Part shown: one piece after another, positions 1,829-20,572 of the stretch
How positions within the stretch are numbered: the first letter of the stretch is position 1
How the letters are laid out: each line of letters starts with the position of its first letter
DNA from: Atribacteraceae bacterium
GTDB taxonomy: Bacteria > Atribacterota > Atribacteria > Atribacterales > Atribacteraceae
Assembly: GCA_035477455.1 (NCBI GenBank)
Contig: DATIKP010000076.1
Location: 1-32,970, forward strand
Reading direction: 5' to 3'
Length of the DNA stretch: 32,970 nucleotides
Notes under the pieces: model-generated
Seen by the model: the letters and a program-made list of their open reading frames with translations, nothing else
Databases searched by the model: none
What the model was told of the DNA's origin: nothing
Translations under genes and position numbers: made by a program

Positions 1829-1840
1829 ATCCACCACCTG

Positions 1841-1950: not shown

Positions 1951-2274
1951 AAAGCCACGGATCACCGGAATATCGAGAGATCCGGGAGACCCAATAGTTT
2001 CACCCGGCTTCGCCGTGAAGTGTTGTCCTGGGTTTTTACGCACGTAACCTCTACATATGTGCCAAGTCGTAGTTCATTACGTCATTCTCGGCCACTGAAA
2101 AAAATCAAAGAGAATCGGTGGGATGGCAATAACTGTGATTAGTTAGCCCAGATTCTTTGTGTCCATCAGGAAACAGGACGTTGGTATGGTTTTCCCGGAG
2201 ACGGGGTATAAATATCTGAATCATGCTGTAGGAGCGATCTTTTTTCCAATCTGAAAAGAGGTGTGATACGGATA
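1951..2274 (+). promoter_or_regulatory. Long structured 5' leader of sugar locus 1
   Basis: About 330 bases separate the predicted start of transcription from the first start codon, with no supported gene. A hairpin CGGATC/GATCCG spans 1958-1984. A second, compound hairpin pairs ACCCA 1989-1993 with TGGGT 2029-2033, and encloses TTCA/TGAA and CGGC/GCCG around a TTC loop at 2009-2011. It is followed by a short T-run (2033-2037), so it could act as an attenuator. ACGTAA/TTACGT near 2042-2081 and AGAATC/GATTCT around 2112-2157 add further pairing. I do not recognise a known riboswitch class. The case rests only on visible inverted repeats. Confidence 0.4.
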
Positions 2275-5230: not shown

Positions 5231-6200
5231 AAGTTTGGGAAAAAAAAGGGGTCTTCTACATTCGTTTTTTGTGTTTTGGGACAAAGTCGGCATTCTTCTT
5301 GTCTTTTTTCTGATTTGTGTGATTTTCGGTATTCTCGCCCCCCGCTTCTTTCATCCCCTGAATATACTGAACGTGGTTCGCCAGGTGTCTATCACTGGGG
5401 TGATTGCCGTCGGAATGACCTTTGTCATTCTGCTCGGGCTCATCGACCTGTCGGTCGGTTCCATCGTGGCCTTCACCGGTATGATTGCCGCCGGCTTCCA
5501 GGTGAACTGGGGAGGGAACTTCTTTTTGAGTATCATGGTTCCCCTTTTGATCGGAACCGGGATCGGATTTTTTAACGGCTACATCTCCACCAAGGGAAGA
5601 ATTCATCCTTTTATCATATCTTTGGGGAGCATGAGTATTTTCCGGGGATTGACGCTTTTAGTCGCCCGGGGTAGACCGATCTCGGGAATGAGTCCAGAAT
5701 TTCGCTTTATCGGCGCCGGAATGGTTGGAGACGTTCCCTTTCCGGTGGTCTTGTTCATCGGGACGGTGATCCTCGCCGGGATTGTGTTGAAAAAAACGGT
5801 GTTCGGGCGCTATATCTACGCTATTGGAGGAAATTCGGAAGCAGCCCTGTTATCAGGCATTATGGTTGATAAGATCAAAATTCTCGCTTTTTGTGTCCTG
5901 GGTTTTCTGGCCGGGTCGAGCGGTTTGATCCTGACCTCCCGCCTGAATTCCGCTGAAATGTTGGCTGGCACTGGATATGAGTTGGATGTCATTTCTGCTG
6001 TGATCATTGGGGGAACCAGCCTGATGGGTGGTGAGGGAGGGGTCTACGGAACCCTGGTCGGAGCGCTTCTTATGGGAGTGGTGGCCAACGGGTTGAACTT
6101 GCTGGGAGTACAGCCTTTTTGGCAGATGATAGTTCGGGGAGCGATCCTAATTCTGGCCCTGCTTATGGACCAACTGAAGAGACGCTTCCTGGCGGCGTAG
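5214..6200 (+). CDS. Sugar ABC transporter permease (RbsC/XylH type)
   Basis: The 328-residue hydrophobic protein belongs to the branched-chain/ribose permease superfamily. It shows the family's typical blocks: a first membrane helix at about 20-40, GVIAVGMTFVILLGLIDLSVGS at about 60-85, and AVIIGGTSLMGGEGGVYGTLVGALLMG near the C-terminus. The start overlaps the ATPase gene by 17 bases, indicating translational coupling. It should form the membrane channel of the CUT2 importer with the ATPase and the binding protein encoded on either side. Confidence 0.96.
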   Translation: MSKAVESLGKKRGLLHSFFVFWDKVGILLVFFLICVIFGILAPRFFHPLNILNVVRQVSITGVIAVGMTFVILLGLIDLSVGSIVAFTGMIAAGFQVNWGGNFFLSIMVPLLIGTGIGFFNGYISTKGRIHPFIISLGSMSIFRGLTLLVARGRPISGMSPEFRFIGAGMVGDVPFPVVLFIGTVILAGIVLKKTVFGRYIYAIGGNSEAALLSGIMVDKIKILAFCVLGFLAGSSGLILTSRLNSAEMLAGTGYELDVISAVIIGGTSLMGGEGGVYGTLVGALLMGVVANGLNLLGVQPFWQMIVRGAILILALLMDQLKRRFLAA

Positions 6201-6301
6201 AAAAGGAGGTGAGGACTGCTTATCCAAGGAATGGATTTTTTACGGAGCCCCTGTGCAGTTGGTTGTGAAGAAACATTCAAGAATAGGGAGGAGGTTTTCA
6301 C

Positions 6302-7264
6302 ATGAAGAAAGTCGTTCTTTTACTCGTCGTGTGTGCTATGGTTCTGCTCCCATTTTCGGGAACGCTGGCTTCGGCTCAGGAAGCCGACCTAACCATTGGG
6401 TTGTCATTCCCAAGCCTGGCTTTTGCCTGGTTCGCCTTTTTGGAGCAGGCGGTTTTCGATAAGGCAGAAATATTAGGTGTCGAAGTGGTCTCTCTCGAAG
6501 CGGAAAACCGGGTTGACCGGCAGATGGCCATCGTTGAAGATATGATCATCAAGGAAGTGGACGGGGTACTCCTGGTTCCCATTGAAATCGAAGCTATCGT
6601 TCCCGCTGTTTTGGCCCTCAACGCTGCCGGGATACCGGTGGTGACTGTCGACCGGCGGCTGGCTGAAGGCGCGGCGGAAGTTTTGGCCCATGTTGGAGCA
6701 GACAACTTAGAAGGCGGTCGAAAGGCCGGCCAGTTTATTGTGGACAAACTTACCGAGAAATATGGGGAACCCCGAGGCGTGGTCATCGAACTTTACGGAA
6801 CACCCGGAGCGGGTCCGGCTATTGACCGCAGCGCGGGGTTCAACGAGGTGCTTGCCCAACACCCCGGTATCACCGTGCACACCAGGACTGCTTATTTCGG
6901 CCGGGCTGACGGAATGCGGGTGATGGAGGATGTCATCATAGGCATTCCCGAATTTGATGCCGTGTTCGGCGCTAACGACGAAATGATCCTGGGAGGGCTC
7001 GAGGCTATGAAAGCCAGTGGAGTTGTCGATGTAGAGGCGACGATCACTATCGGGTTTGACGCATTGCCCGACGCTCTCGCATCTATCGATCAGGGGATCC
7101 TGGATGCCACTATCGAACAGTTCCCCGGTCGGCAAGCGTCCGACGGCTTCCAGGTTTTAATCGATAATCTGCGGGAAGGGACAGTCCCCACGGAACCGAT
7201 AACCCTTATCGAACCGACGGTCATTACCGCCGCTAACCTGGGTGACGCCGAGAAGGCCTTCTAA
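6302..7264 (+). CDS. Periplasmic-type sugar-binding protein (RbsB-like)
   Basis: A 320-residue substrate-binding protein with an N-terminal signal peptide: two lysines, a hydrophobic stretch up to about residue 22, then a SAQEAD-like cleavage region. The body has the two-lobed fold of the ribose/galactose-binding family: ADLTIGLS, EVDGVLLVPIE, GIPVVTVDRR, VFGANDEMILGGLEAM and TITIGFDALPDAL. GGGAGGAGG at 6288-6296 is a strong ribosome-binding site 5 bases before the ATG. It is the last gene of sugar locus 1 and delivers substrate to the RbsC-like permease. A strong terminator follows 25 bases after the stop. Confidence 0.96.
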   Translation: MKKVVLLLVVCAMVLLPFSGTLASAQEADLTIGLSFPSLAFAWFAFLEQAVFDKAEILGVEVVSLEAENRVDRQMAIVEDMIIKEVDGVLLVPIEIEAIVPAVLALNAAGIPVVTVDRRLAEGAAEVLAHVGADNLEGGRKAGQFIVDKLTEKYGEPRGVVIELYGTPGAGPAIDRSAGFNEVLAQHPGITVHTRTAYFGRADGMRVMEDVIIGIPEFDAVFGANDEMILGGLEAMKASGVVDVEATITIGFDALPDALASIDQGILDATIEQFPGRQASDGFQVLIDNLREGTVPTEPITLIEPTVITAANLGDAEKAF

Positions 7265-7334: not shown

Positions 7335-8741
7335 TCAGATCATTTCCCAGCGGATCCCAATGACTTCACAGACCATTTTCAGCTCTTCCACATAATCTCC
7401 GTACACGGCGTGGATGTGGTTACAGGGGAACCGATCGATAAAGCAGTCGATCGAGGTGTCGAGCTTGCAGAAGGCGTGCGGCCATTCGAGCTGGGTTCGT
7501 TCCATAATGGTTCGGTTGGTCGCTTTGTCGTACTGGACGAACTCACCGGTCAGGATGGCCATCCAGTATTCTCCGTTTTTCCGGCCCAGCCGGGCCAGAG
7601 TCACTTTCCCGGGGTGCGCCAGGTGATGGACCGTCGCTCCTCCGGCCGGGAAATAAAACCCTTCCGGGTAAAAGATGACCTTGGAGAGGTTGTCCCGGTA
7701 ATCGAAGCTCCCTCCCGCGAAATAGGTGGCGTGCTGGCCTGAGTTGCACATATCGAGGATCCCGTAGTCTTCATGCCAGTGCCGGACATCGGCGAACAGC
7801 ACTGGGGTATTGGCCAGCTTTTTCAGGATTTCCATGGTCAAACCCGCGTCCATGTCCGCTTCGGTGGAACAAACAATCGGCTCTTTCGGTCCATCGAAAT
7901 CATAGGGGTCGTTCATAAAGGCTTCGGCCACGTCCATAGTACAGAAGCTGTTGGTCAGTTCCGGTTGCCCCTTGATACCACAGAAATCCAGATGCATTTC
8001 CCGGCACAAATCCCGGACGGCGTAATAAGAGGCGATTTGCCTTTTCAGGATTTCAGGAGTGAGTTGTTTTCCGTCATAGGCGATTTTTCCGATATTCTCT
8101 TCACACCAACGTAAAGCCCGCTCGATTTTTTCCGGAGGGTACGATGCGGCTTTCCGGACGATTTCCCACTGATCAATGTGTTCGACATCGATGCCGAACA
8201 CATCCATCCAGGTTTCGGTTCCGACCGTAGCCGTGTACATACCCATCGGCCGACCGCCGAAACAACCGAAGGTTTCGCCCCGCAGGGACTTGGCGCAGGA
8301 AGCGGCTCTGATAAAGAGGTTGACCCTGCGGAACACGGTTTCATCCTCGATGTTTCCCGAAATGCGGCGATATGGGATACCGATGTTGTCCAACGCTCCG
8401 GATGAGGCCAGCATACCGACCAGACCTGGATATCCGGGATTGATGTTGGAAAGGCACAGGTATGGTCCCGGGGCGAATTGCGCGGCGAGCACCGTGAACT
8501 GAGGCCAGGACCAGATGGAATAATTGAAGATGGTACAGTCGACGCTGTGGCGCTCCATTTTTTTCCCGGCGGCGACTGCCTGGGGATTCGTGCAGGGGAT
8601 TTCGTCAGCGATAATAACCGTGTGACCAGCCTCGGTGAGACGCTTGATGAGGGTTTCCTGAAAACTTTTGTTCATGGGGAGAAGCTCTTCGTGAACATGT
8701 CTCCGTCCGTCGGAAAAGGTGATAATGCCTACCGTACTCAT
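7335..8741 (-). CDS. L-fucose/L-arabinose isomerase-family protein
   Basis: A 468-residue protein of the FucI/AraA isomerase fold. The N-terminal Rossmann-like part begins TVGIITFSDGR and includes a HVHEE segment. Candidate metal ligands typical of FucI are seen in order: E294 in CSTEADMDAG, D318 in LFADVRHW, and a later histidine such as H337 in CNSGQH. It is somewhat shorter than E. coli FucI and distant from it, so the substrate is open. The ATG at 8741 has AAGGAG 9 bases upstream and replaces a longer TTG-started reading. The gene is transcribed divergently from the second ABC transporter operon under a matching operator, so it likely acts on the sugar that operon imports. Confidence 0.85.
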   Translation of the reverse strand: MSTVGIITFSDGRRHVHEELLPMNKSFQETLIKRLTEAGHTVIIADEIPCTNPQAVAAGKKMERHSVDCTIFNYSIWSWPQFTVLAAQFAPGPYLCLSNINPGYPGLVGMLASSGALDNIGIPYRRISGNIEDETVFRRVNLFIRAASCAKSLRGETFGCFGGRPMGMYTATVGTETWMDVFGIDVEHIDQWEIVRKAASYPPEKIERALRWCEENIGKIAYDGKQLTPEILKRQIASYYAVRDLCREMHLDFCGIKGQPELTNSFCTMDVAEAFMNDPYDFDGPKEPIVCSTEADMDAGLTMEILKKLANTPVLFADVRHWHEDYGILDMCNSGQHATYFAGGSFDYRDNLSKVIFYPEGFYFPAGGATVHHLAHPGKVTLARLGRKNGEYWMAILTGEFVQYDKATNRTIMERTQLEWPHAFCKLDTSIDCFIDRFPCNHIHAVYGDYVEELKMVCEVIGIRWEMI

Positions 8742-8776
8742 AAGGGATTCTCCTTTTGTCTTTGATATGGGCCTAA

Positions 8777-8821
8777 GCAACCGATTACATAAATTGTACT
8801 TGTTTACATTGACTCAGTCAA
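8777..8821 (-). promoter_or_regulatory. Promoter and LacI-like operator of the isomerase gene
   Basis: On the minus strand, TTGACT (complement of 8816-8821), a 17-base spacer and TACAAT (complement of 8793-8798) form a good sigma-70 promoter. Just downstream of the -10 is GTAATCGGTTGC (complement of 8777-8788), a palindrome-like operator with central CG that differs by one base from the site in the divergent promoter. Confidence 0.75.
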
Positions 8822-8855
8822 GTTACCCTCATAAACCACCTATTGGGAAACGTAC

Positions 8856-8897
8856 TTGACAAATGAGAAAAGGAAGTGTTATAGTGCAACCGGTTAC
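8856..8897 (+). promoter_or_regulatory. Promoter and LacI-like operator of the permease/URO-D operon
   Basis: TTGACA at 8856-8861, an 18-base spacer and TATAGT at 8880-8885 form the promoter. GCAACCGGTTAC at 8886-8897 follows directly; its core AACCGGTT is a perfect palindrome of the kind bound by LacI-family repressors. The likely binder is the repressor encoded inside this operon at 15183-16280. Confidence 0.8.
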
Positions 8898-9020
8898 AAA
8901 TAAATGTAGGCAATGTCTACGACATCAGGATATGACCGGAGACGCGGTTGGGTTAAGACACAGTTACTGCCATCCGCTTGAATCGTCCTCAAAACCGTTC
9001 ATCTGGGAGGATAGAGATGT

Positions 9021-9980
9021 ATGAGTGAGGGAGTTTGCCAGGTTTCCCAGAAGAGAAACAGCGAAGCAGCGTCGAGGGCTCCCTCACGGATCCGGGAGAG
9101 TTTTTTCAACCGGCACCTACCCGTTCTCATGGCGATTCCCGCGCTGGTCATCATCATCGTTGTTATCCTCGTCCCCATGATCTATTCATTCTATCTGAGT
9201 CTGACCAATTTAAACCTCCTGCGCCCGGCGCAAGCTCAATTTGTAGGTTTAACAAATTATCTCCGCCTCTTCCAGGACCCGCTATTCTGGAGAGCCTTCA
9301 TCAACACGCTCATCTTCATGGGGGTGGCGGTGAATGTCGAGTTTCTGCTGGGGCTGTTTCTGGCCCAGCTCATCTTCCGGGTGACGCGGGGCCAAGGAGT
9401 GATTCGGACCGCCATCATGGCCCCCATGATGTTTGCACCCGTGCTGGTCGGGTTTCAGTTCAGATGGTTTTTCCACGACCAGGTGGGCCTGTTCAACAAT
9501 ATTTTGTATGCCGTGACCGGTAATGTCCAGGTGATCCCCTGGCTCATCAACTACCCGGCGAACCTGATCGCCATATTGATCGCCGAGATCTGGATGAGCA
9601 CACCCTTTATGGTTATCGTCTTCATAGCCGGATTAGTCAGCCTGCCCAGTGAGCCCTTCGAGGCGGCGGCGGTAGACGGAGCCAGCGGATGGCAGCAATT
9701 TCGCTATATTACCTTTCCCCTGATTAGTCCCTTCGTGTATATTGCCATGGTGATCCGTTCTCTTGATCTGGGCCGGGCTTATGACCTGGTGCGCATCATG
9801 ACCGACGGAGGCCCGGCCCATCGTTCGGAGATGATTTGGACCTATACCTTCCGGCTGGCGATCACCAATAACCGATTCGGCATGGGTACGGCCATGTCCT
9901 TTATTACCGTTGCGGTTTCATTTCTTTTTATCATCTATTTATTTCGACAATTATCCAAGAGCCGTCAGGAGGTCTATTGA
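9021..9980 (+). CDS. Sugar ABC transporter permease (MalF/UgpA type, CUT1)
   Basis: A 319-residue inner-membrane protein with about six predicted helices; the first lies at roughly residues 33-57. The cytoplasmic EAA loop reads EAAAVDGASGWQQFRYITFPLI, the site that contacts the ATPase. GGGAGGA lies 9 bases before the ATG. It pairs with the next permease, which starts two bases after this stop. No ATPase is encoded in the operon; such importers often share a multitask MsmK/UgpC-type ATPase encoded elsewhere. Confidence 0.95.
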   Translation: MSEGVCQVSQKRNSEAASRAPSRIRESFFNRHLPVLMAIPALVIIIVVILVPMIYSFYLSLTNLNLLRPAQAQFVGLTNYLRLFQDPLFWRAFINTLIFMGVAVNVEFLLGLFLAQLIFRVTRGQGVIRTAIMAPMMFAPVLVGFQFRWFFHDQVGLFNNILYAVTGNVQVIPWLINYPANLIAILIAEIWMSTPFMVIVFIAGLVSLPSEPFEAAAVDGASGWQQFRYITFPLISPFVYIAMVIRSLDLGRAYDLVRIMTDGGPAHRSEMIWTYTFRLAITNNRFGMGTAMSFITVAVSFLFIIYLFRQLSKSRQEVY

Positions 9981-9981
9981 G

Positions 9982-10857
9982 ATGAGAGAGACGGAAATAC
10001 GCCAGGTGAGCCGAAAGCAGCGCAAGTTACGCAGGGAGCTCCTGAATGTGTTGGTCTATGTGTTGGTTGTCATCTTTTTTCTTCCGGTCTTGTGGATTGT
10101 CATGACTGCCATGCGACCGGAAGTGGAAGTCAACACCCGTCCTCCGGTTTGGATCCCTGACCGAATCGACCTTGGTTCATTCCGTACGCTCTTCGCTTCC
10201 AGCCATATCGCCGGGTCAGTGCCGTTTTACAGCTACTTGCGTAATTCCCTGCTTATTGCGTTATTCAGTACGGCATTTGCTCTTACGGTGGGAACGCTGG
10301 CCGGATACAGTTTTTCCCGTTTTCGTTTCCGGGGTTCCAGCCAGACCTTCGTCGGCATGATGATGGCCCGCTCAATCCCTGGTATATCGATCAGCCTTCC
10401 GCTTTTCCTTCTCTTTGCCCGAACGGGACTGACCGACCGGATCGGCGGGATGGTCCTGATTTATACGGCGATGAATATTCCCTTCACCACCTGGCTCATG
10501 CAGGGTTTTTTTAAAGATATTCCGGCTTCCCTCGACGAAGCGGCTCAAATCGATGGATGCTCGAGGTGGCAGGCCTTTGTTCGGATCGATCTTCCATTGA
10601 CCCTACCGGGGCTAGCGGCCAGCGGTATTTTTGCCTTTCTTACTTCGTGGAACGAATTTCAGGTCGCATCCGTCATCACCCGGACACCGGCGTCAAAGAC
10701 TTTTCCGGTCGGTTTGTATGATTTTACCCAGCAATTCACGATGGACTGGCGGGGAATGTGCGCTATGTCAGTGGTCATGCTGATCCCAGCGGTGGTTTTC
10801 GTGCTGATAACCCAAAAACAGTTGATACGAGGGTTGACTTTCGGAGCGTTCAAGTAA
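9982..10857 (+). CDS. Sugar ABC transporter permease (MalG/UgpE type, CUT1)
   Basis: A 291-residue membrane protein. After a basic N-terminus (RKQRKLRREL) comes a first helix at about 18-40, then PVLWIVMTAMRP, typical of MalG-like subunits. The EAA loop reads DEAAQIDGCSRWQAFVRIDLPL. The ATG at 9982 is set by AGGAGGT seven bases upstream; a longer in-frame extension into the previous gene is not needed. It partners with the MalF-type permease to form the membrane channel. Confidence 0.95.
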   Translation: MRETEIRQVSRKQRKLRRELLNVLVYVLVVIFFLPVLWIVMTAMRPEVEVNTRPPVWIPDRIDLGSFRTLFASSHIAGSVPFYSYLRNSLLIALFSTAFALTVGTLAGYSFSRFRFRGSSQTFVGMMMARSIPGISISLPLFLLFARTGLTDRIGGMVLIYTAMNIPFTTWLMQGFFKDIPASLDEAAQIDGCSRWQAFVRIDLPLTLPGLAASGIFAFLTSWNEFQVASVITRTPASKTFPVGLYDFTQQFTMDWRGMCAMSVVMLIPAVVFVLITQKQLIRGLTFGAFK

Positions 10858-10954
10858 AAACAGGTCGATAGGCTGTAAGTCGTTAGCGGTTTAGATTTGT
10901 CGAAAGAGCCGTAGCCGAATCCCCGGTATTTTTTCTGTAGGGAGGTAGTTCGTC

Positions 10955-12097
10955 TTGCTACGAGAGACCATGTCGTCAAGAGAGCGGGTTATAACCGCAA
11001 TTGAACACCGGGAACCGGATCGAGTGCCGATCGATGTTTCCGCCGTCGACGAAGTGATGGAGGCACTGATCGGGCATTACGGGATCAAGACCGGAGCAAG
11101 CGCTGCTGTCCACTCCTATATTGGAACCGACGGAACCTTGCTGGAAGGGAAAAACCGGGAGGCGCAGCTCAGGCTTCTCGAAACCCTCCATGTCGATTTC
11201 CGCTGGGCTTGGGCGCCGTACTGTGGTCCGAAATTGCAGACGTATCCCGACGGGAGCCGGGAGGGCTTGTTTGGGATCAAGCGGGACGGCCTTTTTTTTG
11301 GCTACGCGGTTGCACACCCTCTGAAAGAGGCCCAAACGATCAGCGATATCGAGAACTATCCCTGGGACCTTTACGCCAATGTCGATCACTACGATTATGA
11401 CCGGTACCGCGAGGAGTGCCGCTTTTTTCACGAAGCGGGATATGCGGTATACGGGGGTCCCTGGGCTCCAATTACCTTTTGGGCGATGGATCTTATGGGG
11501 ATGGACCGGTTTATGATGACAATGTACGACCAGCCGGAAATAGTCGAACGCCTTCTCCAGCGGATAGCTGATTTTTATTTCCGCCAGGCCCAGATCATGT
11601 TTGAAAAAGGCAAGGGTGTTACCGATATCTTTTTCATGGGAGATGATTACGGGGTTCAGAATTGTCCGATGATGAGCCGGAAACTCTGGATGCGGTTTAT
11701 CGCGCCGCATCTGTCCCGGCTATGGGCATTGGCCAAAGCGCATGGCCTGAAAGTACAGCTCCATTCCTGCGGTTCGGTGAGAGCGTTGATTCCGGATTTT
11801 ATCGAAATGGGGGTTGACGTACTCGATCCCATACAGGTCCGGGCGGCCGGCATGAACCCCGCAGAATTGAAGAAAGAATATGGCGGCCTCCTAACTTTTC
11901 ACGGATCGATGGATACCCAGGAAACCCTTCCCTTCGGAACAGTGCACGATGTGCGGGAAGAGGTGCGGCACCGGATGACCGTCATGGCTCCCCGTGGTGG
12001 ATTCATCATTTCCCCCAGCCAGCATCTTTTGACCGAAATCCCCACTGAAAACATTGTGGCTATGTATGAAGCCGCTTATGAATATGGATTTTATTAG
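10955..12097 (+). CDS. URO-D (uroporphyrinogen decarboxylase/methyltransferase) family protein 1
   Basis: A 380-residue TIM-barrel protein of the URO-D superfamily, which includes heme-pathway HemE and corrinoid methyltransferases such as MtaA/MtbA. The N-terminus RERVITAIEHREPDRVPID is the family hallmark. A metal-site-like H270-S-C272-G lies on a barrel strand, and SPSQH with H357 lies near the end. The second cysteine used by MtaA for zinc is not seen. TTG at 10955 is taken as start because GGAGGT is 8 bases upstream; an ATG at 10970 is the alternative. Being inside a sugar-import operon, it is probably not a heme enzyme. Methyl transfer or another reaction on the imported compound is possible. 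Confidence 0.8.
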   Translation: MLRETMSSRERVITAIEHREPDRVPIDVSAVDEVMEALIGHYGIKTGASAAVHSYIGTDGTLLEGKNREAQLRLLETLHVDFRWAWAPYCGPKLQTYPDGSREGLFGIKRDGLFFGYAVAHPLKEAQTISDIENYPWDLYANVDHYDYDRYREECRFFHEAGYAVYGGPWAPITFWAMDLMGMDRFMMTMYDQPEIVERLLQRIADFYFRQAQIMFEKGKGVTDIFFMGDDYGVQNCPMMSRKLWMRFIAPHLSRLWALAKAHGLKVQLHSCGSVRALIPDFIEMGVDVLDPIQVRAAGMNPAELKKEYGGLLTFHGSMDTQETLPFGTVHDVREEVRHRMTVMAPRGGFIISPSQHLLTEIPTENIVAMYEAAYEYGFY

Positions 12098-12144
12098 GTT
12101 CAACATCACTCTTGACTCATCACCGTTTTAACGAGGGGCGAACG

Positions 12145-14022
12145 ATGGCAGGTTTTCGAGGGAAGCTCTTGCGGGTTGACCTGACCAGGAACGTGATTAA
12201 GGAAGAGAGGATTCCGGAACAGCTCCTGAAAAGAACTCTGGGTGGGGCGAATTTGGCTCTATACTACCTTTTGCGAGAGCTGCCGGCTGGAATTGATCCT
12301 TTGTCCGGGCAGAATCTCCTGGTGTTTGCCGTGGGGCCTGGGACCGGTTGCAGGGCACCGGGATGTGATATGCATACGGTGTTGGCCAAATCCCCCTTGA
12401 CCGGCGGAATAGGAGAATCGCAGGCGACCGGCTCCTGGGGGTCTCGGTTCAAGCGGGCTGGTTTTGACCTGCTCCTCATCGGAGGAAAAGCCGAAACACC
12501 CAGGTTTCTGGTTATCGATCAGGGAAAAGCCCGCTTGGCAGACGCCTCGGACTTGTGGGGACAGGATACGACTACCGTCCAGGCGCGGCTCCTCGAAAAA
12601 CTTGGTAATGATTTCAGTATTGCGCAGACCGGAGTGGCTGGAGAAAACGGGGTTCTTTTCGCGTCGATTGTTTGTGATTTGTGTTTTATCAACAACCGCT
12701 CTGGCTTGGGAGCGGTGATGGGGTCCAAAAATCTGAAAGCGGTAGCAGTCAGGGGATACGATGAAGTCCCGACCGCCGATCCCGGAGAACTCCAAAATTT
12801 ATATTCATTTTTTGAGAATCATTTCCTGGAAAATCCGGTGAATCTTCTCACCAGCCGGGAAGGCATTGCTTCAGCAGTTGATTCCTGTAACCGGGACGGC
12901 CTGTTTTCCGTCGCCAACGCCCGAACCAGTTTCCACCCTCGGGCTGAAGGACTTGAAATCAATCAATTCCTGAAGCGAGGAACAATGCATGATGTCCCCT
13001 GTTTCGCCTGTCCGGCCCGCTGTAAAAAAACGTTGGGGAACGGAGTTTTGTCCACCGAACCGTATGGCGCCCCCTCCATGGAGTCAATTGTCGATTTCGG
13101 CTTTTCCCTGGAGTTGGCTTACCCCGACGTGGTTTTGGAACTTCACCGAATGTCCCGGCGATACGGCTTCGATACAACCTCCTGGGGAGTGACGCTTGGT
13201 TTCGTCGCGGAATGTTTTTCCCGGGGAAGCCTCACTCCGGCGGATACCGGTGAGATGCGGATCGGTTTTGAGGAGCCTTATGATGTCCTCCCTTTTACCG
13301 AATCCATGGTCTACCGGAAGGGTTTCGGCGATCTGGCCGGCCGTGGTGTGCGTTTCCTCACCGGAGAGCTTGGAGCGGACACTTACTCCTTCGCTCTCCA
13401 GGTCAAGGGAAAGGAACTGCCGCTGCACGAGCCGCGGATCAAACAGATGCTTGGATTGGGGTATGCGGTGGCTCCGCATGGCCCGGATACCTTTGTAGTC
13501 GAGCATGATACAGATTTTGACGAGAAAGCTCCGACCCTGTTTTTGGATAATATCCTGGCCCTGGGATTGGTCGAACGTCTTTCCTCCCCGCTCTTGAATG
13601 CCAAAAAGGTCCGGATGTACCATGTACTGAGCCAGGTGTTCAGCTTTATGGATGCAGCGTGCCTGTGTATCTTCGCTTTCGCGCCGGTGCGTTTTTTCCC
13701 GTTTTCCAGGATTCCCTGCCTCATTCAGGCTATAACCGGCTGGGAAACCAGTCTCTATTCCCTGATGAAAATCGGAGAGAGCCGGATAATCCTGGAAAAG
13801 ATCTTCAACCTGCGGGAGGGGATCGGTCCGGAAGCGGATTGGCTCCCGGAACGCATGTTCCAACCGATCGCCGATGGTCCCGGGAAAGGCTTATCTTTTG
13901 ACCCAACGGTCTTCCGGCAGGCTATAAGCCTATATTGGGCTATGGCCGGTTGTGATGCGGGGAGTGGTTGGCCGAAACCGGAAAAGATCGCTGAACTGGA
14001 CCTGGCAGATTTTTTACCCTGA
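12145..14022 (+). CDS. Aldehyde:ferredoxin oxidoreductase family protein (tungsten/molybdenum type)
   Basis: A 625-residue AOR-family enzyme of full family length. Residues 63-115 (VGPGTGCR...KSPLTGGIGESQATGSWG...LIGGKAE) match the pterin-binding domain. A [4Fe-4S] cluster motif C286-x2-C289-x3-C293 sits in VPCFACPARCK, and C508 in DAACLCIF is the likely fourth ligand. AOR enzymes oxidise aldehydes to acids with ferredoxin as acceptor, using a bis-pterin tungsten cofactor in the cytoplasm. The ATG at 12145 has GAGGGG six bases upstream. Its place between URO-D genes in a sugar operon implies an aldehyde intermediate of that pathway, or another redox step on the imported compound. Confidence 0.93.
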   Translation: MAGFRGKLLRVDLTRNVIKEERIPEQLLKRTLGGANLALYYLLRELPAGIDPLSGQNLLVFAVGPGTGCRAPGCDMHTVLAKSPLTGGIGESQATGSWGSRFKRAGFDLLLIGGKAETPRFLVIDQGKARLADASDLWGQDTTTVQARLLEKLGNDFSIAQTGVAGENGVLFASIVCDLCFINNRSGLGAVMGSKNLKAVAVRGYDEVPTADPGELQNLYSFFENHFLENPVNLLTSREGIASAVDSCNRDGLFSVANARTSFHPRAEGLEINQFLKRGTMHDVPCFACPARCKKTLGNGVLSTEPYGAPSMESIVDFGFSLELAYPDVVLELHRMSRRYGFDTTSWGVTLGFVAECFSRGSLTPADTGEMRIGFEEPYDVLPFTESMVYRKGFGDLAGRGVRFLTGELGADTYSFALQVKGKELPLHEPRIKQMLGLGYAVAPHGPDTFVVEHDTDFDEKAPTLFLDNILALGLVERLSSPLLNAKKVRMYHVLSQVFSFMDAACLCIFAFAPVRFFPFSRIPCLIQAITGWETSLYSLMKIGESRIILEKIFNLREGIGPEADWLPERMFQPIADGPGKGLSFDPTVFRQAISLYWAMAGCDAGSGWPKPEKIAELDLADFLP

Positions 14023-14047
14023 ATTGCTCAGAGAGGAGTTTTGTATC

Positions 14048-15199
14048 ATGGATCCCGTTTCTGTCAAAAGGGAAAGAGTGTTGACGGCGCTCAGGGATCG
14101 GAGGGAACCCGACCGAGTCCCCTTAACCGATTTTTACTGGACCGATTTTTACCGGAACTGGCTGAGGGAGATGAATCTGCCCGAGGGAACGGATATTTAT
14201 GAATACTATGATCTGGATGTGAAATTGATCACGCCCAACATCGATCCCCGGGTGGAAAGTTGCCGCGTTCTCGAACAGACAAAAGACTACGTTGTGTTCA
14301 AGAGCGGGTTCGGCTGTACGGTGAAAAAGGACTTTTCCGCCCCAATGCCCATGTTCCTCGATTTCGAAGTGAAGAGTGCCAGTGAGCTATCTTCATTCCG
14401 CTTCGAGGATCCCCGTGACGACCGCCGCTATTTCGAACCCCGCTGCGATATTCTCAACAACGGCGATTCGTTTGGTTTATTGCCCAGCTACCTAGAGGCA
14501 CTCGATCAGAACCAATCGAAATTCGCCGTTTTCGGATCGGTTTGTGAGCCCCATGAGGCCATGTGGCGTATCCGTGGGACGGAGGGGCTTTTGATGGATC
14601 TGGCGGTGGAATCTCAGAAAGTCAAGGATTTTGCCGAGCGGGTGACTGACTTCATGCTCGGTGTACTGGAGCGGCAGACCGAATTGGCCGATCTGACCGG
14701 GATAATCATCTGGGGGGATGTTGCCTATGACAAGGGGATGTTTTTTTCACCCGACACCTGGTGGAAGATCTATTATCCCTGCGTCAAACGCCTCTGTGAT
14801 GTTATCCGGGAGAAGGGACTGCTCGCCGTATACCACGGGTGTGGGAGAAGCCTGGACATTTTCGAGGGCCTGATTGAAGCCGGGGTTCAGGTCTATAACC
14901 CGCTGGAAGCCAAGGCGGGGATGGATCCGGTGGAATTGAAGAAACGCTTTGGTGATCGGATCGCTTTTTATGGCGGGATCGATATGCGGCTTTTGGGTGA
15001 AGGGTCGTGGGAGGAAGTGCAACAGGAAGTACTCTATAAACTCCAGGCCGGCCAAGGCGGAGGATATATGCCCGCTTCCGACCATTCCGTAGCCTCCAAC
15101 GTCAACCCGCGCATTTACGACCGGATGATCACTCTCTTGAAAGAGCGGGGAAGTTATCCCTTGGACCTGAATAGTCAAAACTATGGCCACCATATATGA
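14048..15199 (+). CDS. URO-D family protein 2
   Basis: The 383-residue protein starts MDPVSVKRERVLTALRDR, followed by EPDRVPLTDF, the URO-D family signature. H263-G-C265-G lies on a barrel strand and H346 in PASDH near the C-terminus, the same layout as the other two paralogues, but overall sequence differs widely. GAGAGGAG lies 10-12 bases before the ATG. The last 17 bases overlap the start of the lacI-type gene. A role in methyl or one-carbon transfer on the imported compound is an inference from family membership and context; no corrinoid protein is encoded here. Confidence 0.8.
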   Translation: MDPVSVKRERVLTALRDRREPDRVPLTDFYWTDFYRNWLREMNLPEGTDIYEYYDLDVKLITPNIDPRVESCRVLEQTKDYVVFKSGFGCTVKKDFSAPMPMFLDFEVKSASELSSFRFEDPRDDRRYFEPRCDILNNGDSFGLLPSYLEALDQNQSKFAVFGSVCEPHEAMWRIRGTEGLLMDLAVESQKVKDFAERVTDFMLGVLERQTELADLTGIIIWGDVAYDKGMFFSPDTWWKIYYPCVKRLCDVIREKGLLAVYHGCGRSLDIFEGLIEAGVQVYNPLEAKAGMDPVELKKRFGDRIAFYGGIDMRLLGEGSWEEVQQEVLYKLQAGQGGGYMPASDHSVASNVNPRIYDRMITLLKERGSYPLDLNSQNYGHHI

Positions 15200-16280
15200 T
15201 ATCGCCCGGGTGGCGAAAACTTCTCCCGCCACGGTCTCCCGGGCGCTAAGCGGAACCGGAAGCGTCAGGGAAGAAACCCGGAAAAAAATCAAAAAGATCG
15301 CCCGGGAAATGAACTATTCCCCGAACCATCTGGCCAGAAGCCTGGTGAAGAAGAAGACCGACACTATCGCCCTGATCATTTCAGACATTACCAATCCCTT
15401 TTTCACCGCCATGGCCCGGGGCGTGGAAGATTCGGCGGCAAAAAAAGGCTTCAATACCATTTTATGCAATACCGATGAAAACGAAGACAAAGAAAAAACC
15501 TATGTCGACCTGATGCTCGAACGCCGGGTCGATGGGATATTGGTGGCCAGTTGCAGTGAGGGGAAGACCCTTGTTGAGTTGAAAAAACGTGATGTTCCGG
15601 TGGTCCTGGTGGACCGGAAGATCTCCGGAACTCGCTGGGACTGGGTGGTTGGAGACAGCGAGGAGGGGGGCTATCTCCTGACCCGGCACCTGATTACCGT
15701 ACACGATAGTCGGGCGATTGCGATGATCACCGGTCCGCAGGCTATATCCACCAGCCGGGAGAGAATGGACGGATACCAGCGGGCCCTAGTTGAGTTTGAC
15801 ATCGCTCCCCGGCCGGAATGGATGACGGCCGGCGCCTATAAAGAGGATTTCGGCCACCGGATCGCCGTTGAGTATCTACGGAACTATAGCGCAGTTCCTC
15901 ACGCGATCTTCGCTGGGAATAACTTTATAGCCATGGGGATCGTCAAAGCCGCCCAGGAAATTGGTTATCGAATTCCCGAAGATCTGCTCTTGGTGACCTT
16001 CGATGATTTTGAAATTGCTTCGTTTATGCATCCTTTCCTGACCGTCTGCAAGCAGCCGGCTTATACCATGGGGAGCATAGCCACCGAGTTCCTGCTGCAA
16101 CGGGTTGGCGGAGAGAAAATCCGGGAACAGAGAAAGGCGGTTTTAAAACCGGAAATAATCATCCGCCGGTCCTGTGGCTGCGGGGCCAGTCCGGAAACGG
16201 CAGGATTTGGCCGGATCGGAGCTATGTCCGGCAAGGAGCCCATTACAGAGGAGAGGAGAGGAGAGGAGGAACGTGCGTGA
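15183..16280 (+). CDS. LacI/GalR-family repressor of sugar locus 2
   Basis: A 365-residue repressor. The HTH is ATIYDIARVAKTSPATVSRAL, with hinge helix HLARSLVKKK, then the sugar-binding-type domain (DTIALIISDITNPFF; FDDFEIASFM near the end). It starts inside the preceding URO-D gene without a clear Shine-Dalgarno, so it is probably translated by coupling. After the usual domain end (IIRRSCGC, about 332) it has an unusual tail of some 30 residues ending EERRGEEERA; the DNA for this is a GAGGA-type repeat that also serves as the ribosome-binding site of the next gene. It is the best candidate to bind the AACCGGTT operators at 8777 and 8886. Confidence 0.92.
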   Translation: MATIYDIARVAKTSPATVSRALSGTGSVREETRKKIKKIAREMNYSPNHLARSLVKKKTDTIALIISDITNPFFTAMARGVEDSAAKKGFNTILCNTDENEDKEKTYVDLMLERRVDGILVASCSEGKTLVELKKRDVPVVLVDRKISGTRWDWVVGDSEEGGYLLTRHLITVHDSRAIAMITGPQAISTSRERMDGYQRALVEFDIAPRPEWMTAGAYKEDFGHRIAVEYLRNYSAVPHAIFAGNNFIAMGIVKAAQEIGYRIPEDLLLVTFDDFEIASFMHPFLTVCKQPAYTMGSIATEFLLQRVGGEKIREQRKAVLKPEIIIRRSCGCGASPETAGFGRIGAMSGKEPITEERRGEEERA

Positions 16281-17392
16281 CCTCAAAAGAAAGAATGCAT
16301 CTGGCCCTGAACCGTGAGAAGCCAGACCGCCTGCCGGCGACTGTGCACCAATGGCAAAAATTCCATCTCGATACCTACCTGAACGGGAGCTCAGACCTTG
16401 ATGCTTTTGAGTATTTCGGCCTGGACGCCGCCGTTCAATATTTTGAGGATATGGGGCAGTTCTGGCTTCCCGATGCCGACTTTACTCGCTTTTCGACTCC
16501 TGAATGGCGGGACGAAGTCCAAGTGTATAACTCTGATCCGGACAATCGGAGTCATCGGCATACGATACACACTCCGGAAGGAACGCTGACCTATGCCACG
16601 GCCGGCGACCGGAAGACCACTTGGATCACCGAGTACCTGATCAAGAAGCCAGAGGATATTATACTTCTCAAAAAATACATGCCGGTCCCCCGGCTCGATC
16701 GCGGTCTGGTTAATACTCTGTATGAACGGATCGGAGATCGGGGCGTTTTGCGCGGTTTCGTCTGGGGGGATCAAGCCGGGTGCTGGCAGCATGCCGCCTG
16801 CCTGGTGGATATCAATGCCCTGATTCTCTATGCCCTGGACACGCCCGATTGGGTTCATGAGCTGTTGCATGTTCTGTTGGAGAAGAAACTCGAATTTTTA
16901 GAGTCGATGAAAGGGGTACGGTTTGACCTGGTGGAAACAGGAGGAGGAGCTTCGTCCTCCACGTTGATTTCCCCGGCCTTGCATGAAGAGTTTTGCCTCC
17001 CCTATGACCGTCGTTTGCACGAAGCCCTGCATGATCTGGGATTCAAGACGTCCTACCATACCTGCGGAGGAACACGGGGGATTGAGGAAATGATCGTAGC
17101 CAACGGCACCGATGCTTCAGAAACCCTTGCCCCGCCCAGTATTGGCGGAAACCAGGAGCCGTGGGATTACAAGGCGAAAATTGGCAATCGCCTGGCATTG
17201 ATCGGCGGGATGGACCAGTACAATATATTGACTGTCGGAACACCGGAAACAATTTCTCGTGCAGTCCGTGACCTGTTTGAAAAGGTGGGAGTGGAAGGAG
17301 GCTATATCCTGTCGACGGCCGATCACTTTTTCGAAACGCCCGCAGATAACCTTCACGTTTATGCCCGGGCTGCCCGGGAGTGCGTGTATTGA
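16277..17392 (+). CDS. URO-D family protein 3
   Basis: A 371-residue URO-D superfamily protein starting at GTG 16277, which overlaps the lacI stop in a GTGA arrangement with GGAGAGGAGGAA just upstream. The N-terminus SKERMHLALNREKPDRLPA is the family signature. H261-T-C263-G and H350 in STADH keep the pattern of the other two paralogues. The middle differs (FVWGDQAGCWQHAACL), so substrate specificity probably differs. Three unlike members in one operon argue for successive or alternative steps rather than simple gene dosage. Confidence 0.8.
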   Translation: MTSKERMHLALNREKPDRLPATVHQWQKFHLDTYLNGSSDLDAFEYFGLDAAVQYFEDMGQFWLPDADFTRFSTPEWRDEVQVYNSDPDNRSHRHTIHTPEGTLTYATAGDRKTTWITEYLIKKPEDIILLKKYMPVPRLDRGLVNTLYERIGDRGVLRGFVWGDQAGCWQHAACLVDINALILYALDTPDWVHELLHVLLEKKLEFLESMKGVRFDLVETGGGASSSTLISPALHEEFCLPYDRRLHEALHDLGFKTSYHTCGGTRGIEEMIVANGTDASETLAPPSIGGNQEPWDYKAKIGNRLALIGGMDQYNILTVGTPETISRAVRDLFEKVGVEGGYILSTADHFFETPADNLHVYARAARECVY

Positions 17393-17587
17393 TTTTGCCT
17401 GGTCTGCCCGCTAACCCTCCCGGTACATTCCTAAGGGGAGTGGTTGATGAAAACGGTTTAAATCCTGCGAAAGGAGGTGGAAGGCCTGTCAATGTAAAAG
17501 AGTGGTGCGGGTAAGTTACAGCGCTACAGATGAGGTGCTAACCAGCGTTATTGGATTGACAACTTTGTTGAACGGGAGGAATTGACG
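17393..17587 (+). other. Intergenic region with mini-ORF and Shine-Dalgarno-like sites
   Basis: ATGAAAACGGTTTAA at 17447-17461 encodes MKTV and stop and is preceded by AAGGGGAG. It echoes the first codons of the binding-protein gene (start-Lys-Thr). AAAACGGTTT (17450-17459) is also a half-palindrome similar to the locus operators. AAAGGAGGTGG at 17470-17480 is a strong ribosome-binding-site-like sequence with no gene after it, only ATGTAA at 17491-17496. It may be an eroded gene start or a translational leader. Confidence 0.35.
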
Positions 17588-18913
17588 GTGAAAACATGCT
17601 TGGTAGCGATTGTCGTGGCTATGTTGATTCTCTGGGCGGGAATGGGTCTTGCCCAGGATTTGGATCTCGGACGTTTTGACGGAGTGGTATTGCGGGCGTC
17701 CTTTATTGGTGGCGGCGCCTACGAAAAGCTCTACGAGGAATTTATTCCGAAGTTCGAGGAATTGACCGGGGCCACCGTCGAGATCGTTTTTAAGGGCACC
17801 GGTTTTGATGTCGACGTCAAGCAGAAAATTGATTTTGCCGCTGGGACGGTCGATTACGACCTGTGCTGGAATCATACCAGCTTTTTCGCCCAGTACATCG
17901 ATTTTCTGTACCCCCTGGAGGAACATTTCAGCGAAGAGGAACTGGCCGATTTTTCGCCCCGGATCATGAGTTATGCCTGGAAGGATGGGCACCTGTGGTT
18001 TATTCCCCGCCACGCGGACATCAGCGCTCTTCATTACCGGACAGACCTCTTCAACGATCCGGATAAACAGGCCCGGTTCCTGGAGGAGCACGGTTACGAA
18101 CTTCGCCCGCCTCAAACCTGGGACGAATTCAGGGATATCGCCTTGTTCCTTAACGACCCACCGAATATTTACGGAACCCAGTTCGCCGGTAGAGAGGAAG
18201 CGCTGTCCGGCAGATTCTGGGATATCCTGATGGCCCACGGCGGTCAGATCATCGATGAAAACTATCGTGCGGCGTTCAACAGCCCCGAAGGCATCAGAGC
18301 CGCGACCCTATTGCGTGACCTCTATCAGGCCGGAGCCATGCCTCCGGGAATGCCTACCTACTTGTGGGACGACGTGGCCGGCAACTGGACGAGTGGGATC
18401 ATCGCCATGTATACCGAGTGGTACGGATGGTATAGCCATTTCCAGGATCCCTCGGCCTCCAGGGTAGCCGGGAAATTCGGTCTGGCCCGCCAACCGATGG
18501 GTGATGCCGGAAGACACAGCGGTTGGGCCGGTGCCCATGCCTGGTCGGTGACCAGGGCCAGTCAGAATAAAGAAGCCGCCGTGGCATTCATCAGGTTTAT
18601 CACCAGTTACGAACCGATGCTTTTTGAAGCCCGAATCGGTTATATCCCGGTGCGTAGTTCGGTGTTTGATACAATCATCGCGGAGGCTGCCGTATCTGAG
18701 GATCCGCTGGCCAAAGAACGTCTTGAACTAATGCAACTGCAGATCAACGAAGATTTTACACCTCCTCCAATCATCGCCGAGTGGATTCCCGTCTCCAATG
18801 CCCTGTTCCCCAGGCTCCAGGCCATCATGCTTGGAGACATAAGCGTGGAGGACGGATTGGCTGAAGCGGCCCGGGCAGTGGACGAGATTATGCGGGACGC
18901 CGGTTATTTTTGA
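17588..18913 (+). CDS. Extracellular sugar-binding protein (family 1 solute-binding protein)
   Basis: A 441-residue CUT1-type binding protein. The N-terminus is a signal peptide (MKTCLVAIVVAMLILWAGMGLAQ). The mature part has LYEEFIPKFEELTGATVEI, VDYDLCWNH and a late GWAGAHAWSVTRASQNKEAAVAFIRFI block typical of the family. GTG at 17588 is chosen over TTG at 17582 because GGGAGGA lies 7 bases before it. It captures the sugar for the MalF/MalG-type permeases at the other end of the operon. Its unusual place at the far end and the long gap before it could allow separate expression. Confidence 0.93.
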   Translation: MKTCLVAIVVAMLILWAGMGLAQDLDLGRFDGVVLRASFIGGGAYEKLYEEFIPKFEELTGATVEIVFKGTGFDVDVKQKIDFAAGTVDYDLCWNHTSFFAQYIDFLYPLEEHFSEEELADFSPRIMSYAWKDGHLWFIPRHADISALHYRTDLFNDPDKQARFLEEHGYELRPPQTWDEFRDIALFLNDPPNIYGTQFAGREEALSGRFWDILMAHGGQIIDENYRAAFNSPEGIRAATLLRDLYQAGAMPPGMPTYLWDDVAGNWTSGIIAMYTEWYGWYSHFQDPSASRVAGKFGLARQPMGDAGRHSGWAGAHAWSVTRASQNKEAAVAFIRFITSYEPMLFEARIGYIPVRSSVFDTIIAEAAVSEDPLAKERLELMQLQINEDFTPPPIIAEWIPVSNALFPRLQAIMLGDISVEDGLAEAARAVDEIMRDAGYF

Positions 18914-18923
18914 TAAGCATACT

Positions 18924-18968
18924 GTTCCTGATGGGGGATGAAACTGTTCCCCCCATCAGGAACTTTTT
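18924..18968 (+). terminator. Intrinsic terminator ending sugar locus 2
   Basis: GTTCCTGATGGGGG (18924-18937) pairs perfectly over 14 bp with CCCCCATCAGGAAC (18950-18963), with a 12-base loop and a following TTTTT run. It lies just after the binding-protein stop. Confidence 0.96.
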
Positions 18969-19036
18969 ATTCTTTTGAGAATTCCTTCCGGGAATTTACG
19001 AGAGGTATGGGTTTGGCGCAAAAAATATCATCGGTT

Positions 19037-20572
19037 ATGCTCAGGGATATGGACCGACGGAAATTACTTTTTTATGTCTGGGTTGCTTTGCTCATGCTCT
19101 TCCCCGGCTTGCTTGCTCAGGGTCGGACAGCGGTTCTCCGCGACGTGGAATTACGTGAATACCTGCGCACCGCCTGGAGAACCGGCGATACCGCGTTGCT
19201 CACTTATCTGATCCCCAGCCTTGAGCTTTTTTTTGAGCCTGACGAGGCGATTGCCTACCTGGATCGGATCGTCGTCTCCCCGTCTCACTTCCCTTTCACA
19301 GTCCGGGTACTCGCCCTCCGTAAAACAGCCGAATTGATGCCCGGAGCCAGTTTCGGCCCCTACCTCCAGCGTTTGTTTCTGGATCGTGGGGAGGTCCCCC
19401 TACAACGTGAGATCATCCGCCTATTGGGATCTACAGACAATTGGATTCCTTTTCTATGGAGCATTGCCGAGGGAATCGGGTTAGAGGAAAAACCGGAAAG
19501 CGAGAGGATCATCCTTCGCTTTGAAGCATTTGGTATGCTGGCCCGTTGGCAGATCCTCGAGGCCTTACCGGTGTTTTTTCGTTTTCTCGAACAGGAATCA
19601 ATGCCGACATTTTTCTTTTCGGAGGCTCAAAAGTATTTATGTGCGTATGACCAGCGGGCGTTCCCGTACTTAAGCGCCTTCCTGCAATCCTCCGATGAGC
19701 GGTTCCGACGCCTGGTCATTCCCGCTCTCTCCCGGATGGGTCAAGATGGACGGGCAATAGTTTTCGAAGCACTGAACGATCCCTGTGTGGACGTGCGCGA
19801 AGCAGCCTTGCTTCATCTCATCCGGACCGGTCCGCTGGATGCCGGACTAATCATGGGCATGATCGATCCGAAAGATATGCGAATCCAGGGTTTGGTTCGT
19901 GCCTTTATATTGAGTCAGGAGGGTCAGGGAGAACTTCCCTGTCTACCGGACGGTAACGATCGAACGATAATGGGAATTTTGGCCAGGACAGAGCCGGGAG
20001 TGGCTTGGCTTGTCCGCTCGACAAAAGGTGTAGAAGAATTGGAAATTCGCCTGCTGGACCAGCTGGTCGCTCTTGACGAAATCTTTCCGCATCCCGATCT
20101 TTGGCGGATTTTGGAAAAGCACGAGTTTTCTCACGGTACGCTTGTGACACAGTTTGATCCGGAATTCGTGCAGGAGCGCCTGCTTCCCGAAGTTAAAAAT
20201 CGGCCGGAACTTTTCACGGTCCTGGTAAGTGCTGCGCAACCTTTCTCCCGGCAAACATTGCTCTCTCATCTTTACTGGTTGCGCGCCTTGCTGCGGGAGG
20301 GTGAGGAGCGGGTACGCGGTCAGGTGGTTCGAGCCCTCTTCCCTCTCGGCACCGAAGCGCTTCCGGTTTTGGAGCCCCTAATGGATGAGCGTTCTGAGTA
20401 TGTCGTTACAGAGATTGTGAACCTTCTTCGGCTGATTTCATCCCCGGCGGTGGCCCGCTATCTGGAAAGGGTTCTCGATCACCCTTCGGTTCAGGTGCAG
20501 ACTATGAGCCGCCTGGCTTTTCTTGAGCTGCTTGAAAGAGAAGGGCTACGAATGATCTGGCTATCCCGCTAA
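19037..20572 (+). CDS. Predicted exported or membrane-anchored HEAT-repeat protein
   Basis: About 511 residues. After MLRDMDRRK comes a hydrophobic stretch (LLFYVWVALLMLFPGLLAQG) that looks like a signal peptide or anchor. The rest is leucine/arginine-rich paired helices in repeats of about 30-40 residues, such as DERFRRLVIPALSRMG, DPCVDVREAALLHLI and HPSVQVQTMSRLAFLELL, a HEAT/armadillo-like solenoid. The start is uncertain: ATG 19007, 19037 and 19049 are in frame, none with a well-placed ribosome-binding site. A reading upstream to 18938 would run into the terminator and is rejected. I see no catalytic motif; a scaffold role in the cell envelope is likely. It is convergent with the serine acetyltransferase gene. 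Confidence 0.75.
   Translation: MLRDMDRRKLLFYVWVALLMLFPGLLAQGRTAVLRDVELREYLRTAWRTGDTALLTYLIPSLELFFEPDEAIAYLDRIVVSPSHFPFTVRVLALRKTAELMPGASFGPYLQRLFLDRGEVPLQREIIRLLGSTDNWIPFLWSIAEGIGLEEKPESERIILRFEAFGMLARWQILEALPVFFRFLEQESMPTFFFSEAQKYLCAYDQRAFPYLSAFLQSSDERFRRLVIPALSRMGQDGRAIVFEALNDPCVDVREAALLHLIRTGPLDAGLIMGMIDPKDMRIQGLVRAFILSQEGQGELPCLPDGNDRTIMGILARTEPGVAWLVRSTKGVEELEIRLLDQLVALDEIFPHPDLWRILEKHEFSHGTLVTQFDPEFVQERLLPEVKNRPELFTVLVSAAQPFSRQTLLSHLYWLRALLREGEERVRGQVVRALFPLGTEALPVLEPLMDERSEYVVTEIVNLLRLISSPAVARYLERVLDHPSVQVQTMSRLAFLELLEREGLRMIWLSR

Follow-up and report, generated by a model that had tools for sequence, protein, structure and literature searches.

A CUT1 sugar-uptake locus with three divergent URO-D proteins in Atribacteraceae: a candidate route for the anaerobic demethylation of methylated sugars

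The three-component O-demethylases MtvB, OdmB, VdmB and MtoB, together with the chloromethane system CdmBCA of the UroD superfamily (PMC13222342), combine a UroD-superfamily methyltransferase I (MT-I) with a corrinoid carrier, an activase and a methyl-tetrahydrofolate (methyl-THF) route. The locus analyzed here, from an Atribacteraceae bacterium, an uncultured anaerobe of the deep-branching Atribacterota, may represent a related system. It lies on a stretch of 32,970 nucleotides (the window), which is contig 76 of a draft genome of 2.16 Mb (174 contigs, 96% complete), and it places three divergent URO-D superfamily proteins, UroD1, UroD2 and UroD3, in a CUT1 sugar-uptake operon. The described O-demethylases and CdmBCA have aryl methyl ethers or haloalkanes as substrates. 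Here, by contrast, MT-I-like genes occur several at a time within operons for sugar uptake, a carrier encoded at a distance would have to serve them jointly, and the proteins are only remotely similar. We propose, with a probability of about 0.5, that UroD1-3 are methyltransferases of the zinc type, which would transfer methyl groups from O-methylated 6-deoxyhexoses to a corrinoid protein that they share, the methyl group then passing through methyl-THF to formate.

Other described systems resemble parts of this locus. MtaA, MtbA and the MtaA-like proteins of type 1 mlp clusters (PMC10418091) provide the best matches (MtaA structure 4ay7; models NF004889 and TIGR01463) and share the HxC motif; in contrast, UroD1-3 lack the third Cys ligand, have no sulfur context, score far under the cut-offs and fall outside that clade. 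Demethylation of a methoxy sugar within a carbohydrate-utilization locus is known from marine Flavobacteriia, in which a P450 oxidatively demethylates 6-O-methyl-D-galactose (PMC10033563); that system depends on O2 and releases formaldehyde, whereas the present one would be anaerobic and would retain the methyl group. This P450 reaction was the sole sugar demethylation in the literature searched, which described no anaerobic sugar-demethylating enzyme. Open-licence papers gave no link of URO-D proteins to methylated sugars, an earlier description elsewhere being possible. L-fucose catabolism (FucI, FucK, FucA; lactaldehyde) is comparable in that a gene of the fucose isomerase family shares its operator with the operon, and true FucI or a glycoside hydrolase family 29 (GH29) gene lies beside UroD2 in other phyla. 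It differs in that the FucI-like protein is under the cut-off, kinase and aldolase lie outside the cluster, and an aldehyde:ferredoxin oxidoreductase (AOR) replaces lactaldehyde dehydrogenase or reductase. Methylated sugars themselves occur in plant, algal and microbial glycans, an example being 2-O-methyl-L-fucose in rhamnogalacturonan II (PMC12282258).

Family, active site and phylogeny of the three URO-D proteins

UroD1, UroD2 and UroD3 all pass the Pfam PF01208 cut-off, although UroD2 and UroD3 are only 22% and 24% identical to UroD1. The genome contains 19 matches to PF01208, corresponding to about 17 genes, two of the matches being complementary ends of one gene split at contig ends. The best curated models for UroD1 are NF004889/mtaA_cmuA, far under cut-off, and the best score of the three proteins against curated coenzyme M methyltransferase models is 71 bits, compared with cut-offs of 235-600. 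Models of the MtaA/CmuA type match up to 16 of the 17 paralogues tested in this genome, all far under cut-off, and the HemE model matches five of them, weakly, and is the best model for none. UroD1-3 gave no match to the HemE model TIGR01464 at E<=1e-3.

The HxCG motif is present in all three proteins, as HSCG, HGCG and HTCG in UroD1, UroD2 and UroD3, followed late in the sequence by Q-H, D-H and D-H, respectively. Where MtaA has its zinc ligands (His, Cys, Cys), the three retain His and the first Cys, and the last Cys is substituted: by Gln followed by His in UroD1, by His after Asp in UroD2, and by Asp followed by His in UroD3, a column of the alignment that may be off by one residue. MtaA, CmuA and the Mlp-type proteins of Acetoanaerobium have Cys at this third position, and HemE is without HxC. 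The substituted sites are strictly kept. In UroD1, LHSCG and SPSQHL are invariant across five orthologues; for UroD2, a set of 11 homologues (Atribacterota, Bryobacterales, Spirochaetales, Chloroflexi) has YHGCG and SDHS without exception; and in UroD3, YHTCG and ADHF are invariant among orthologues. In UroD2, counted from a start at 14048, the site residues are H263, C265, D345 and H346. According to Kountz and Balskus, His-Cys-Cys is characteristic of S-methyltransferases, while in the superfamily's O-methyltransferases Cys gives way to carboxylate or non-coordinating residues (PMC10418091). Under this rule the substituted third ligand favours an oxygen ligand, and is no proof of methyl transfer.

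In a maximum-likelihood tree, UroD1, UroD2 and UroD3 form three separate clades, each supported at 100/100, and MtaA, CmuA, the Mlp-type proteins and Escherichia coli HemE group apart from them (99/89); other deep branches are unresolved in this tree, which has long branches, represents HemE by one long-branched row, and lacks references of the MtvB/OdmB type. UroD3 groups with the paralogues C170b and C94 of the same genome, which likewise lie beside CUT1 transporters (91/87). An AlphaFold model of UroD2 (pLDDT 79) has the URO-D fold and matches HemE and MtaA structures equally, and the structure was dropped as a discriminator. Across the genome, URO-D genes occur beside sugar permeases only modestly more often than expected (5 of 15 loci; P ~0.01-0.14, according to how much distance is permitted).

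An earlier reading of this DNA from its letters alone (the sequence-only reading) had described a CUT1 locus with three divergent URO-Ds and an AOR, an HxCG and a late (A/S)xxH-type motif in each URO-D, and a function other than heme synthesis, and had proposed a phylogeny against MtaA and HemE. Genes and families are as it described, the late motif being Q-H or D-H; no HemE-best member was found among those tested, and UroD1-3 fall outside HemE in three other, deep clades.

A second sugar operon of the same genome (G000:C170, 2282-10051 of locus L025) comprises two URO-Ds, both HxD variants, with a GH4 glycosidase, a CUT1 transporter and a LacI regulator.

Conservation of the cluster and its neighbours in other phyla

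Of 25 genomes of the order, 19 encode UroD2, compared with none of 25 from elsewhere in the phylum, the orthologous loci coming from Candidatus Atribacteria and Caldatribacterium; genomes are drafts, and genes outside the window were called with a simple open reading frame (ORF) picker. The recurrent order around UroD2 is SBP-MalF-MalG-(UroD1)-UroD2-LacI2-(UroD3)-(HEAT), SBP being the solute-binding protein, and LacI2 directly follows UroD2 in most loci, including three (L098, L100, L104) in which the pair lies behind a different CUT1 transporter. Orthologues of MalF/MalG (488-571 bits; L105, L115, L146, L151) and of the SBP (735-783 bits; upstream of malF in L105, L114, L146, L151) recur, as does a HEAT-like gene after LacI2 or UroD3 (L098, L102, L138). 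UroD2 is the constant member of the cluster, and the AOR is optional. In a single-contig relative (L152, G005:C1:406000-425500), natural decay of the module is seen: the FucI-like gene, cupin, LacI1 and RbsBCA are kept, but an in-frame stop interrupts what is left of UroD2, and neither the CUT1 genes nor UroD1 was found beside it.

The AOR looks complete, aligning over its full length with 1aor (the best PDB match, E 2e-80) and keeping CxxCxxxC and the late Cys of the 4Fe-4S cluster. Among the 24 other genomes of the order, only 4 have a close orthologue (60-63% identical), which makes 5 of 25 with this one; in those 4 it lies next to UroD1, UroD2, LacI2 or UroD3 (UroD2 adjoins in G007, G019 and G022, UroD1 in G004). 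The earlier view that the AOR is a fixed component of the pathway did not hold, and as a core enzyme of the module it was rejected on this count. It probably oxidizes an aldehyde from sugar cleavage; lactaldehyde is the cleavage product of fucose and rhamnose (PMC3557285). In two other Atribacterota families (L087, G046:C26; L089, G026:C256), a FucI-like gene lies near an AOR gene, with no URO-D in the stretch seen.

The FucI-like protein, encoded divergently from malF, keeps the Glu and Asp of the STEAD...FADVR stretch as in L-fucose isomerases of the PDB, and its orthologues in five loci (L114, L115, L146, L147, L152) are 75-82% identical. A cupin-like gene adjoins it in L114, L146, L147 and L152, with a fragment in L115, and a LacI1-like gene adjoins cupin/RbsB in L146 and L152. 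The cupin-like protein (404 aa, conserved, a cupin by eye) had no match in Pfam, NCBIfam or PDB and is a candidate new sugar isomerase or epimerase.

Between the FucI-like gene and malF, a LacI-type operator, TGCAACCGGTTACA, lies at 8885-8898. It was found with a relaxed LacI-type pattern, while a scan of this gap for 16-bp near-perfect palindromes gave nothing. All six loci that pair the FucI-like gene with transport/URO-D genes (this one and the five just named) have a TGnAAnCGnTTnCA-type site in the intergenic stretch next to that gene, bearing out the claim that an isomerase-like gene diverges under a matching operator. Recurrence by chance is unlikely, as judged without a formal expectation. 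Because the operator is kept in 6/6 loci and the gene arrangement recurs, shared regulation of the FucI-like gene and the URO-D operon is very probable, and the module is under selection.

Homologues of UroD2 that are 40-46% identical were found by a genome scan in Bryobacterales, Spirochaetales, Chloroflexi and Anaerolineae, and their neighbours include corrinoid-related and fucose-related genes. In an Anaerolineae locus (L113), two UroD1-type genes are followed by UroD2 (40% identical), a corrinoid protein and another URO-D, with a GH4 gene further on; the corrinoid protein (4341-4979), masked by an antisense ORF and found by tblastn and ORF listing, has both B12 domains and is 56% identical to the Atribacterota carrier. 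A more distant UroD2 in a Chloroflexota genome (G086) is clustered with an MttB-superfamily methyltransferase, a serine hydroxymethyltransferase and an FGGY kinase. UroD2 lies directly behind an alpha-L-fucosidase in three near-identical Bryobacterales loci, and elsewhere the same genomes carry a cluster of an HxCG/HN-type URO-D, a corrinoid protein, a His-Cys-Cys URO-D and RACo. In a Spirochaetales locus (L111), a gene for true L-fucose isomerase (1096 bits, cut-off 775) ends 60 bp away from UroD2, and a UroD1-type gene, a CUT2 transporter and a glycyl-radical enzyme are encoded close by. Looser relatives include two URO-Ds with an alpha-L-fucosidase in a Lachnospiraceae genome, and three clustered URO-Ds with an alpha-L-rhamnosidase, GH2 and a ROK kinase in Subdoligranulum variabile (L188, OY725838.1 82349-109843). 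Further on, this gut bacterial replicon also carries a His-Cys-Cys URO-D and a RACo-type gene, unannotated.

A proposed demethylation route and its alternatives

The genome has a complete, though dispersed, set of components for a corrinoid-dependent route. The sequence-only reading had stated that no corrinoid protein is encoded, which is true for the window; elsewhere the genome encodes a single stand-alone corrinoid protein, comprising both B12 domains (G000:C143:7261-7956; L090:7261-7956), which adjoins fhs (formate-THF ligase), with MetV/MetF-like genes further along, as well as one RACo-type reductive activase (C30; L096:2367-4181) and one methyl-THF:corrinoid methyltransferase (MeTr) (C138; L095:4717-5517; 317 bits, cut-off 259). 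The carrier family is present in 23 and the activase in 22 of the 25 genomes of the order. In Atribacterota, fhs, folD and metF occur almost everywhere, and carbon monoxide dehydrogenase/acetyl-CoA synthase (CODH/ACS) in only two genomes (PMC11227167); its lack in the present genome rests on that paper and not on a search of this genome. The dispersed one-carbon set would thus need another use: where ACS is lacking, the carrier, activase and MeTr must receive methyl groups from elsewhere, and demethylation would provide them. At 8487-10247 of L096, the contig of the RACo-type gene (G000:C30) also encodes an RnfC/Nuo51-like protein and two small proteins that, by eye, resemble EutN/CcmL-type shell proteins; this may be a microcompartment locus.

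In the proposed route, the locus would import an O-methylated 6-deoxyhexose, such as methylated fucose or a near relative, and degrade it anaerobically. A fucose-type substrate is favoured because fucose-isomerase or fucosidase genes neighbour these proteins in three phyla. UroD1-3 would be diverged, substrate-specific MT-I-type methyltransferases of a corrinoid O-demethylation system, in which a Zn-like site, with His, Cys and an Asp/His replacing the last Cys of thiol methyltransferases, would polarize the ether oxygen. The methyl group would pass to Co(I) of the shared, distantly encoded corrinoid protein, which the RACo-type protein would reactivate and from which MeTr would unload the methyl; methyl-THF would then be oxidized via MetF, FolD and Fhs to formate, with ATP formed at Fhs. 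The demethylated sugar would go to the FucI-like isomerase and on to a kinase and aldolase encoded elsewhere, and the AOR, in lineages having it, would oxidize lactaldehyde or a similar aldehyde while reducing ferredoxin. The three URO-Ds may serve different methyl positions or stereoisomers, or one may have another role. The reaction, the substrate, the use of a distant corrinoid protein and the AOR step, as we infer them, all reach beyond gene identity and linkage.

Several observations weigh against this proposal. The similarity of the URO-Ds to characterized methyltransferases is weak, amounting to tens of bits, and UroD1 has Gln rather than Asp/His in the exact ligand column. No corrinoid gene lies beside the module in any Atribacterota locus fetched; the linkage that the sequence-only reading had proposed to look for in relatives was seen in another phylum, next to the UroD2 orthologue of L113. 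In JS1-type lineages that have few URO-Ds, the corrinoid protein is encoded too, often together with the activase; the presence of the carrier is for this reason only permissive, and was rejected as proof. The FucI-like protein, with three Fucose_iso domains matched but only 97 bits against the FucI equivalog cut-off of 775, could act on another sugar, and the window contains no kinase, aldolase or fucosidase gene. The Bryobacterales loci count only once, and the GH29 and FucI links come from few independent lineages. The earlier idea of methyl chemistry on a modified sugar is nevertheless strengthened by the corrinoid, MttB, fucosidase and fucose-isomerase neighbours of homologues, the substrate itself remaining conjectural.

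Among other explanations, the likeliest, though less probable than the proposed route, is that the URO-Ds carry out non-methyl chemistry on the sugar or its products, for instance as Zn-dependent lyases, decarboxylases or epimerases, and that the corrinoid links elsewhere belong to other members of the family. This family is large and mostly uncharacterized, several of the sugar-linked paralogues in this genome have HxD or no HxC motif, and most sugar-linked members, including all those of Atribacterota, are without an adjoining corrinoid gene; however, a UroD2 orthologue does adjoin a carrier, a UroD2-family gene clusters with MttB and serine hydroxymethyltransferase, and the MtaA/CmuA-type models match 16 of the paralogues where HemE matches 5. 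A plain fucose-type or other plain-sugar operon, with the URO-Ds in a side role unrelated to the imported sugar, is improbable. The FucI-like isomerase, two sugar ABC systems, two LacI regulators and the modest permease association would suit it, but over 19 genomes no gene of the cluster is as constant as UroD2, which also lies behind unrelated CUT1 transporters, and UroD1 and UroD3 retain the same neighbourhood.

It is still harder to accept the URO-Ds as thiol or selenol methyltransferases of the SCMT/Mlp type, acting in methyl-sulfur metabolism: MtaA, MtbA and CmuA are their nearest curated families, but the third-ligand Cys is missing in all three, the tree sets them apart from MtaA, CmuA and the Mlp-type proteins, and no sulfur genes lie nearby. 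Heme biosynthesis by HemE copies has practically nothing left to recommend it beyond the Pfam name, the TIM-barrel fold and a UroD2 model fitting HemE as well as MtaA; family models, the HxCG motif absent in HemE, and the separate clades led to its rejection.

Gene layout and wider significance

The genes malF, malG, UroD1, AOR, UroD2, LacI2, UroD3, SBP and a HEAT-repeat gene follow one another in one orientation at 9021-20572, the CUT1 operon itself taking up 9021-18913 (Table 1). To the left of the FucI-like gene lie RbsACB, the cupin-like gene and the second LacI regulator, LacI1, so that the system reaches from about 791 to the end of the HEAT-repeat gene. The starts preferred for AOR and UroD2 were chosen from orthologue lengths. 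Further along, at 25510-29700, a VWA protein, a PP2C phosphatase, a protein-kinase-like protein and a right-handed beta-helix protein lie in a row, a Ser/Thr phospho-signalling cassette.

Table 1. Features of the sugar-uptake system in the window
Feature	Position	Strand	Basis or remark
LacI1, regulator of the left-hand (CUT2) half	791..1837	-	Pfam LacI and Peripla_BP_3
Cupin-like protein (cupin by eye)	2263..3477	+	occurs with the FucI-like gene
RbsA, RbsC, RbsB, CUT2 monosaccharide ABC transporter	3710..7264	+	ORFs; Peripla_BP_4; BPD_transp_2 at 5361-6161; binding protein at 6302-7264
FucI-like protein, divergent	7335..8780	-	Pfam Fucose_iso_N1/N2/C
MalF and MalG, CUT1 permeases	9021..10857 (MalF 9021-9980, MalG 9910-10857)	+	BPD_transp_1
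UroD1, URO-D superfamily, H-C-(Q)H site	10955..12097	+	PF01208 E 1e-21
AOR	~12145..14022	+	AFOR_N and AFOR_C; ORF opens at TTG 12112
UroD2, URO-D superfamily, H-C-D/H site	~14048..15199	+	PF01208 E 6e-15
LacI2 regulator	15183..16280	+	LacI family; directly after UroD2
UroD3, URO-D superfamily, H-C-D site	16277..17392	+	PF01208 E 9e-20
SBP, CUT1 solute-binding protein	17582..18913	+	SBP_bac_1, SBP_bac_8
HEAT-repeat protein, often last gene of the cluster	18938..20572	+	PF13646

More broadly, and more tentatively than for the locus itself, these proteins may belong to an unrecognized class of anaerobic corrinoid-dependent sugar O-demethylases, in which expanded URO-Ds, several with their own importers, would use one shared carrier for methylated 6-deoxyhexoses and other methylated sugars; such a class would explain why the methyl branch is kept without CODH/ACS. 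If true, this would assign a function to a large family of proteins for which heme synthesis is the usual annotation, account for the orphan methyl branch in Atribacterota, and predict a source of methyl groups and formate in subsurface and gut communities.

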